Positions 1-16,030 of a stretch of DNA of 64,000 nt are shown piece after piece (within the stretch, counting starts at the first letter, position 1; every line of letters starts with the position of its first letter). The stretch is from the NCBI GenBank assembly GCA_015067545.1, contig SVMG01000004.1, forward strand, positions 1-64,000, read 5' to 3'. This stretch comes from Oscillospiraceae bacterium. GTDB lineage: Bacteria; Bacillota; Clostridia; Oscillospirales; Oscillospiraceae. Position numbers and translations under genes: made by a program. A model generated the notes under the pieces. The model was not told the origin of the DNA. It searched no databases and worked only from the letters and a program-made list of their open reading frames with translations.

Positions 1-122
1 TAATCTTGTAAGTGAAAAGTTAACTTAAACTACGATGGCACGCCGTGTGCGGGGAAACTCGCATGCACGGTGTAGACGGGGGGAAAACTTGGAGATAATT
101 TCAAAGAGTTACCTATCCGTAT
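1..122 (+). mobile_element. 3' end of a bacterial group II intron (domains V and VI), truncated by window start
   Basis: A 34-nt domain V fold at 40-73, ACGCCGTGTGCGGGGAAACTCGCATGCACGGTGT (CGC triad, GAAA tetraloop, 2-nt bulge), followed by a DVI-like stem and a ...CCTATCCGTAT 3' end. The downstream sequence continues in frame as RecD2. Confidence 0.85.
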
Positions 123-1279
123 CCACCATTATGAAGGGGCTTTTGTCCTTGCTGGGACAGATGCAGCTGAGCTATGTGATGGCAGCCCCCACCGGACGTG
201 CCGCCAAGCGGCTGACCGAGGTCACCGGCGAGGAGGCCTCCACCATCCACCGCCTGCTGGAAAGCACCATCGACCCCGCCACCGGGGACATGGTCTTTTT
301 GCGGGATGAAGCCAATCCTCTGAAGACCGATGTGGTGATCGTGGACGAAATGAGCATGGTGGATGTGCTGCTTCTGCACAGTCTTTTGCGGGCGATCCCT
401 GAGGGAAAACGGCTGATCTTCGTGGGTGACCCGGATCAGCTGCCTCCGGTAGGCCCGGGCTTTCCCTTTGGGGATATGCTGCGAAGCGGAGCGCTTCCTA
501 CTGTCCGGTTGACAGAGATCTTCCGACAGGCCCAGGAAAGCCTCATTGTCATGAACGCCCACCGGGTCAATAACGGCCAGATGCCGGAGCTTAAAAATGT
601 AAAAAGCGACTTTTTCTTCCTGCCCTGTCGGTCAGAAGAGGAAATGCGTCAAACGATCACCGGCCTGTGCACCACCCGGCTACCCCAAAAAATGGGCATC
701 CCGGCAACGGAGATCCAAGTCCTCTCCCCCACCCGCAAGGGCGGCGTGGGCACAGCGGTGCTGAATCAAACATTGCAGGCTGCTCTCAATCCTCCGGGCG
801 GCGGCAAAAAGGAACGTCAATTCGGCGACTTTGCCTTTCGGGAGGGCGACCGGGTCATGCAGATCCGGAATAACTACGACATTATGTGGAAAAAGCAGGA
901 TGGCAGTGCCGTTGGCACCGGCATTTTCAATGGCGATGTGGGCACCATCACCTGTATCGACCCTCACATGGAGACCATGACTGTGGTATTCGATGATCGG
1001 GAAGCGGACTACGACTTTGCCCAGCTCAACGAACTGGAGCCGGCCTACGCCATGACTGTTCACAAAAGTCAGGGCAGCGAATACCGGGCTGTGATCCTAT
1101 GTGCATGGAGCGGCTCACCGTATCTGCTCAGCCGAAGTGTATTGTACACCGCCATCACCCGGGCACGGGAGCTGCTGATCATCGTAGGTCGGGCAGAGAC
1201 CGTGGCCGCCATGACAGAGAACGCCAAGCGCGGCCGCCGATACACCGGGCTGAAGCTGCGCCTGCAGGGGAAAGCATGA
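123..1279 (+). CDS. recD2: ATP-dependent RecD2-like DNA helicase, 3' exon (5' part lies upstream of the intron, outside the window)
   Basis: AAPTGRAAKRLTEVTGEEASTIHRLLE, VIVDEMSMVD, GDPDQLPPVGPG, AYAMTVHKSQGSEY motifs. The ORF-track start at 35 is inside intron domain V and is not a real start. Confidence 0.9.
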
Positions 1280-4443: not shown

Positions 4444-6321
4444 TTATTCTTCCTCGCGATTCGCATCAAACAGAGACACCTTGGTAGCCTCGCCGATTTC
4501 CCGGCCTGCCATACAGTCTTCAAACTGCTTGCCTGTCATGGTCTCGTGCTCCAGCAGGTGATCAACCACCGCCATCACCTTGTCCTCATTTGCCTTGAGG
4601 ATCTCGGCACACTGGGCATAGGCCTTGTCCACCAGGAGCTTGACCTGATCATCGATCGTTCCGGCCACCTTTTCAGAATAACTCTTTGTGGTCTGATAAT
4701 CCCGACCGATGAACACCTCACCGCCGCCCAGGTAGCTCACCGTACCCAGCTCCTCGCACATGCCGTACCGGGCCACCATATCCCGGGCCAGCTTGGTCGC
4801 CCGGTCGATGTCATTGGATGCCCCCACGGAAATATCCCCCAGGAACAGGGCCTCCGCTACGCGGCCGCCCAGCAGACCTACGATCTGCTCATACATCTGA
4901 TTCCGGGTCAGATTGAAGCTGTCATCCCTGGGAATGTGCCAAGTGGCACCCAGGCTTTGACCCCGGGGCACAATGGTGATCTGCAGCACAGGGTCCTGGG
5001 TGGGCAGATGGTACATGGCAACGGCGTGACCGGCTTCATGGATGGCAGTCTCCTTCAGGTCCTTGCGCTGACGCACGCGGCTGCGCTTTTCCGGACCAGC
5101 CAGGATCTTCATCATGGATTCGTTCAGATCCTCCATGGTCAGCACCTTGCGGTCATTCCGGGCAGCACGGATGGCCGCCTCATTCATCAGATTGCTCAGA
5201 TCCGCACCGGTGAAGCCCACAGTGGAACGGGCCACCAGCTTCAGATCCACATCGCTGTCCAGCCGTTTGCCCTTGGAATGGACCTTGAGGATATCCTCGC
5301 GGCCCTTTACATCCGGCGCACCCACATGGATCTGCCGGTCGAACCGACCGGGTCGCAGAAGCGCAGGATCGAGAATATCGGGGCGGTTGGTGGCAGCCAG
5401 GACGATAACGCCTTCGTTTTTCGCAAAGCCATCCATCTCCACCAGCAGCTGGTTCAGTGTCTGCTCTTTTTCATCATGGCCGCCGCCGAGGCCGGAGCCA
5501 CGCTTGCGGCCTACCGCATCGATCTCATCGATAAAAATGATCGCCGGGGCTACCTTCTTGGCCTGGTCAAACAGGTCACGGACACGGCTTGCGCCCACGC
5601 CCACATACAGCTCCACAAAATCCGAGCCGGAAATGGACAAAAACTGCACATCCGCCTCACCGGCCACTGCACGGGCAAGCAGGGTCTTTCCTGTGCCGGG
5701 AGGGCCCACCAGCAGCAAGCCGTGGGGGATCCGGGCACCGATCTCCTTGAATTTCGCAGGGTCACGGAGAAAATCCACGATCTCCTGCAATTCCTCTTTT
5801 TCTTCCTCCGCGCCGGCCACATCATCAAAGGTGACCTTGCTGCCGCCGGGTACGCCCAGAGTGGTGCGCGCTCTGCCAAAGTTGGCCATAGGATTGTTAC
5901 CGCCGGCATTGATCCGGCCCATGAGCAGCACCCACAGCACCAACAGGACCAGACCCACGATCAGAAGCGGCAGGATCAAATCATAGGGAGAAAACTCACT
6001 TTCCGGCAGGAAATCATAGCTTTGAAGCACACCGCTTTTGCTCTGCTCCTCAAGCACCGCCTGCATCTGCCGATGGAAGCCCTCCGGGTCTGCTAGACGG
6101 CAGGTCAGCGCGGATTTGCCTTCGTAGGAGCCATGCAGCTCCAAATAGATGGTGTTCTCCTCCACGACAAAGCTCTTCACCTGTTCCGAATGGAACAGCT
6201 CAAGCACCTGTGAATAGCTCAGATCATCCACCCGTCCGCCAAAAATTACGGTGATAATGCTAAGCAGCAGTACCAGGATGATCAGATACATCGGCACTGA
6301 TAAGAATTTACGTTTCTTCAA
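4444..6321 (-). CDS. ftsH: ATP-dependent zinc metalloprotease FtsH
   Basis: AAA motif [39 protein letters not shown] zinc site, two N-terminal TM segments. Confidence 0.97.
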
Positions 6322-15739: not shown

Positions 15740-15910
15740 TGAAATATTGCTACGCAATATGAAATAATTCTGCGGATTATGAAATATTTTGCCTTGAGGG
15801 CAAAATGTGAAATAAAATAAATCCCCCATACGCCGCTGCGTATTTCATAGCATCAGCTATTTCATGACGCGAAGCGTTATTTCACAAATCCCGCAAGGGA
15901 TTTATTTCAT
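15740..15910. repeat. tandem array of short hairpins separated by (T)GAAAT / ATTTCA(T/C) motifs
   Basis: Stems at 15744-15760, 15764-15780, 15786-15806, 15828-15843, 15847-15860, 15864-15880, 15886-15903, plus a long-range pair 15816-15826/15897-15907. Spacers are GAAAT in the left half and ATTTC in the right half. Confidence 0.85.
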
Positions 15911-15912
15911 TA

Positions 15913-15954: not shown

Positions 15955-16030
15955 TGGAGCGGGTGACGAGGCTCGAACTCGCTACCTCCACCTTGGCAAG
16001 GTGGCGCTCTACCGGATGAGCTACACCCGC
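15955..16030 (-). tRNA. tRNA-Gly (GCC), CCA encoded
   Basis: Reverse strand GCGGGTGTAGCTCATCCGGTAGAGCGCCACCTTGCCAAGGTGGAGGTAGCGAGTTCGAGCCTCGTCACCCGCTCCA. Confidence 0.95.

Follow-up and report, generated by a model that had tools for sequence, protein, structure and literature searches.

A group II intron at the Walker A codons of a chromosomal recD2 gene in Oscillospiraceae, with related introns at a second recD2 motif

Group II introns seldom interrupt housekeeping genes (PMC6003770), and most of those in bacteria are found outside such genes (PMC4424553). The window analysed here, a 64,000-nucleotide stretch of an Oscillospiraceae genome, opens with what appears to be the tail of a group II intron running straight into the codons of recD2. 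We asked whether an intron really splits this repair helicase gene within its Walker A codons, whether RecD2 would depend on splicing, and whether recD2 is a target for such introns in other genomes as well.

Two halves of an interrupted recD2 gene

The host assembly consists of 18 contigs (1.80 Mb, 97.5% complete), and base 1 of the window is the first base of its contig C10. The 3' portion of the intron occupies window positions 1–122 (+), with the remainder off the contig. The Rfam model RF00029 for domains V–VI matches at 38–122 (+) with 59.6 bits against a gathering threshold of 40 (E 3.4e-9), and this is its single match in the genome. Folding of 34–122 yielded the 34-nt catalytic hairpin of domain V at 40–73 (+), in agreement with the Rfam alignment, and a domain VI stem at 76–120 (+); the fold has a stability z-score of -4.1, and 0 of 200 shuffled sequences were equally stable. 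Both elements had been proposed in the initial annotation, the second as a domain VI-like stem, and are borne out by the Rfam score and the fold together. Domain VI carries one bulged A, A115, at the eighth base from the intron 3' end, which is the predicted position of the branch point, and the intron closes with the same 3' end, TTACCTATCnnTAT, as its relatives.

The intron borders fit the group II consensus of 5' GUGYG and 3' AY, with GTGCGAC on another contig of the assembly, C9, and ...CCGTAT ending at window position 122. The 3' splice junction (^) at 122–123 (+) reads ...CCGTAT^CCACCATT... into recD2. Where the initial annotation had placed this junction near 121/122, the intron does end at 122, but exon 2 starts at 123, not 122, in the frame CC ACC ATT ATG. 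Exon 2 (123–1279, +) holds the rest of the Walker A codons, the helicase motifs and the stop codon, as judged from the ungapped spliced product and from Pfam. The list of open reading frames also contains a spurious frame of 414 codons at 35–1279 (+), which starts just 5' of domain V and reads on into exon 2. Gene callers are likely to report it as a RecD-like protein, and similar split recD2 genes may hide in annotations behind false read-through frames.

The missing 5' half was found in the same assembly. The RecD2-specific HHH domain lies at the edge of C9 on the minus strand, where the recD2 5' exon ends GGCCCGGGCACCGGTAAGA and runs directly into GTGCGAC, the group II 5' end. Read toward the edge, C9 gives ...CTGATCACCGGCGGCCCGGGCACCGGTAAGA as the end of exon 1 (351 codons plus 1 nt, from C9:118, minus strand), followed by 117 nt of intron, GTGCGACGCGTTTCACC... 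(G000:C9:117-1, minus strand), up to the contig end. An upstream recD2 exon ending in GGPGTGK had been predicted from the window, and it is present here, stopping exactly at the GTGCG start of the intron. Joining C9:118 to window position 123 produces GGT AAG A^CC ACC ATT ATG, which encodes GGPGTGKTTIMKGLL (GGPGTGK-TT) and restores the empty site as it stands in uninterrupted relatives. The insertion point falls between the first and second bases of the codon for the Walker A threonine (GK^T); the intron indeed interrupts the P-loop codons, as had been suggested, and the splice phase gives the threonine back.

The joined gene has 736 codons without an internal stop, and its predicted product aligns without gaps over its whole length with RecD2 of 23 relatives (best 85.5%). 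Pfam detects OB, HHH, AAA (AAA_19, AAA_30), SH3 (SH3_13) and UvrD_C_2 domains in the spliced protein; the match of the genome itself to RecD2 residues 351–736 is exon 2. Domain and protein searches of the assembly contigs revealed no second recD2.

Splicing, the intron interior and competing explanations

Left unspliced, exon 1 reads ...GPGTGKSATRFTVKQTKR and then stops, without the helicase core. The dN/dS of the interrupted recD2 against uninterrupted relatives is 0.08–0.13, compared with 0.10–0.12 between uninterrupted genes, all of these being rough values with synonymous sites near saturation. Such ratios fit a functional, spliced gene, and a very recent insertion would give low values too.

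The middle of the intron, which would contain most of domains I–IV and any reverse transcriptase (RT), falls in the unassembled gap between C9 and C10. The assembly breaks 117 nt into the intron on C9 and 122 nt into it on C10, about one assembly k-mer, and the contig ends look like a k-mer break. A search for RVT_1 in the bin, from whose assembly the intron interior is absent, found none, and Rfam recognised no domain I among the 117 nt at the 5' end of the intron. This 117-nt 5' stub, the only part of that region assembled, is similar to domain I of recD2 and dnaE introns. The copy in the window could be ORF-less or degenerate.

A degenerate ribozyme or a lost maturase would lead to a different reading, in which the intron inserted as described, splicing was then lost, and recD2 is a recent pseudogene. 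The lack of an RT in the bin and of a recognised domain I in the first 117 nt would agree with this, as would the fact that RecD2 is not known as essential here. Yet both domain V and domain VI are intact and the branch A is correct, the exons keep their full frame and a low dN/dS, and the interior is unassembled, not demonstrated missing; we consider the loss of splicing quite improbable. It might also be that only some members of the sampled population carry the intron, or that strains are mixed at the contig ends, in which case an uninterrupted recD2 may be the majority allele. With its 18 contigs, and with close relatives that are metagenome-assembled genomes, the source is itself probably a metagenome bin; the k-mer-sized distance of both contig ends from the exons points the same way, and a break of like kind in another genome of the genus, G859, leaves an exact 141-nt contig overlap, indicative of a branching assembly graph. 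Since the intron nevertheless occurs on both exon ends, and no contig with an uninterrupted recD2 exists in the bin, a mixed allele is unlikely.

That the two halves lie on different contigs might even suggest that C9 and C10 are unrelated and share intron borders by coincidence. However, the halves of the gene are complementary, with neither overlap nor gap, the GTGCG start and the AT end coincide exactly with the empty site, and the genome contains no competing recD2 pieces. In addition, the order atpB-recD2-comF is kept in about 20 of the 23 relatives, and here atpB lies upstream on C9 and comF downstream on C10, which shows that the two contigs are neighbours. A coincidence of this kind is hardly credible.

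We are highly confident of the reading in which a group II intron resides in the chromosomal recD2 at GK^T and RecD2 would be made only from spliced mRNA. Most likely, the recD2 transcript would fold into a ribozyme in which A115 attacks the GUGCG 5' splice site. The intron would then leave as a lariat, and exon 1 would be ligated to exon 2, restoring the GGPGTGKTT codons; spliced mRNA would be the only source of RecD2. The intron probably reached recD2 by retrohoming or retrotransposition. In the same reading, related introns use another conserved recD2 site, HKxQGS^E in the region of helicase motif V, for homing and pass between species at this site.

Sister introns at HKxQGS^E in recD2

Five intron copies were identified at HKxQGS^E in recD2 of four other genomes from two genera (L027, G119, G859 and two in G815). 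In G119, which belongs to another genus, recD2 contains a full intron at AGC G^AG TAC, where the gene encodes HKAQGS^E. Exactly the same site is occupied in L027 (JAFTVM010000005.1), a locus spotted among those already fetched by searching for a shared domain I element; its 2,866-nt intron encodes an intact RT and has domains V–VI as well as a match to domain I. A search of the genus brought to light a further copy in G859 and two that differ from each other in the bin G815, and the RT is intact in all five introns. Of 136 genomes searched in the genus, recD2 was matched in 128. The gene is split at residues 671–672 in G837 (taken as the genome of L027, with the same exon 2), G859 and G815, and at residue 352 only in the genome of the window.

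These introns resemble that of the window in their host gene, in their GTGCGAC...TTACCTATCnnTAT ends (all but one 3' end), in their domains V/VI, which are 82–86% identical to its own, and in a common 22-nt element of domain I, AAAAGTGGTTAGAACCCGCCTG, which G119 matches exactly. G119 has this element at two positions and L027 at one, and it was not used to set the domain I register in the window. In contrast to the window intron, they sit 319 codons beyond the Walker A site, at the E of HKxQGSE, and are known with interior and RT, whereas the window intron is known from its two ends alone. For the HKxQGS introns, EBS/IBS pairing gave no fixed assignment; in the window intron, the EBS region belongs to the missing part.

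We compared the sister introns with their host genes. The five RTs form one clade (support 100/100) with 85–98% identity, in which G119 groups with one of the two from G815 (G815a, 98/100), and the nearest other RT among 361 family genomes is 52% identical. The introns of G859 and L027 are 97.7% identical over 2,866 nt. Their host recD2 genes, by contrast, share 72.1% nucleotide identity, and the 90-nt flanks of the insertion 77–78%. Between G119 and L027, the RTs are 87.7% identical and the RecD2 proteins 51.5% at the amino acid level. Because the introns of the first pair are 97.7% identical while the host genes reach only 72%, the sister introns have moved horizontally into the same recD2 site, and HKxQGS^E shows the pattern of a housekeeping gene invaded by horizontal, site-specific homing.

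Occupancy of the same site by introns more alike than their host genes is seen at HKxQGS^E; at the Walker A site, with its one occupied genome, we infer site-specific homing by analogy. The proposal that the intron homes to a site conserved across hosts accordingly fits the related introns at HKxQGS^E, but not yet the Walker A site, which is occupied in 1 of 128 genomes. Splits at the same Walker A codon in other genomes, for which the initial annotation had suggested a search, were not found: each of the 80 relatives fetched has an uninterrupted GGPGTGKTT, and among the 128 genomes of the genus with a recD2 match the sole split there is that in the genome of the window.

In the G119 intron (L129, G119:C10:493700-500200), an extra segment of about 500 nt lies between domain V and the 3' end, in the domain VI region, and contains an antisense DUF4180 gene (PF13788, E 7.5e-38; reverse-complement coordinates ~4713–5117). 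It is unusual for domain VI to carry a cargo gene. The bin G815 holds two different introns (L199 and L200, on C54 and C109), each beside a recD2 half at the same site, whose RTs share 87.6% and 85.2% identity with the L027 RT; either the bin combines two strains or species, or recD2 is present at two loci.

Several other candidates were examined and set aside. In a subset of the other family genomes, most split recD2 matches end a few bases from the exon and are plain assembly breaks; among the contig ends checked there, an intron was present only in G119, with part of the family genomes that have a second recD2-like match covered individually. RecD2 alignments of genera g21 and g88 (G232, G339, G367, G088, G160) are split near residues 612–618, but the extra residues lie in one open frame, so that an intron was rejected in favour of an in-frame insertion. 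The junction pattern gave 14 matches in viral contigs, 0 of them with a group II domain V nearby and the open-frame ones being ordinary coding GKS/GKT, and the exact strings of the intron itself and its 3' junction had no match in these contigs. Elsewhere in the window, a Gut-1 sRNA at 15837–15912 (-; RF01706, 57.5 bits) directly adjoins a tRNA gene at 15958–16030.

Our views are evenly balanced on a broader idea, namely that an intron lineage of gut Oscillospiraceae has recD2 as its dedicated niche. Such a lineage would home into codons of the catalytic motifs Walker A and HKxQGS^E, which hosts cannot easily mutate, spread horizontally across species and genera, and put a repair helicase under the control of a ribozyme and possibly a maturase. 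A repair helicase invaded at two catalytic motifs by species-crossing introns is a natural and testable system. It could show how a retroelement persists in a gene that the host needs, whether the codons of conserved motifs are a safe place for homing, and whether RecD2 is tuned by how efficiently the intron splices.

Wider relatives and known group II introns

A DNA query with both ends of the window intron matched 27 of 401 family genomes and 9 of 136 genomes of the genus, its own included in both counts. Among relatives with recognisable exons, several lie in genes of conjugation or mobile elements (Pfam: TraG/VirD4 and a TraG-type P-loop protein), and the RT of a relative in G400 belongs to family TIGR04416.

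In G845, of the same genus as the window, a group II intron beginning GTGCGTCTTG... (L203, G845:C104:3500-11098, from 4692 onward) interrupts a DNA polymerase III alpha gene at ...EELGLLKMD, downstream of PHP and DNA_pol3_alpha domains; over 81 nt, the domain I of this intron and the 5' part of the window intron share 80% identity. With a DNA polymerase III alpha gene split as well, introns in housekeeping genes may not be as rare in this clade as they generally are. Near-identical introns (RT branch 0–0.05) were also observed in two genera, at L123 (G400:C34, the genus of the window) and L125 (G356). By eye, both are inserted at the same helicase-like motif, WRPxDLxQRxGRIxRQ, and Pfam identified no family for the 82-aa fragment submitted.

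The window intron appears to be IIB-like, a kind common in Bacillota, with relatedness traced through domains V–VI only; Ll.LtrB is of the IIA class. Ll.LtrB interrupts a functional gene whose expression needs splicing, as that of recD2 would here, but its host is a conjugative relaxase of a mobile element (PMC6003770). Class B or IIB introns of Bacillota, such as those of Enterococcus and Bacillus plasmids (PMC3261151, PMC4424553), are located on plasmids or integrative elements and not in a housekeeping gene. Domains V–VI of Enterococcus plasmid introns, those of E. faecalis among them, are 88% identical over 84 nt to those of the window intron, and the RT of an E. faecium plasmid falls among the RTs of the relatives in the tree. 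According to the passage of PMC4424553 that cites Chee and Takami (2005), the recA gene of Geobacillus kaustophilus carries a group II intron; there too, a DNA-repair gene on a Bacillota chromosome is interrupted, although gene and site are different. Among the papers covered by our literature search, none names group II introns together with recD2. Bacterial housekeeping genes with a group II intron are already known, if uncommon, and what is new is recD2 as a repeated, horizontally invaded home.
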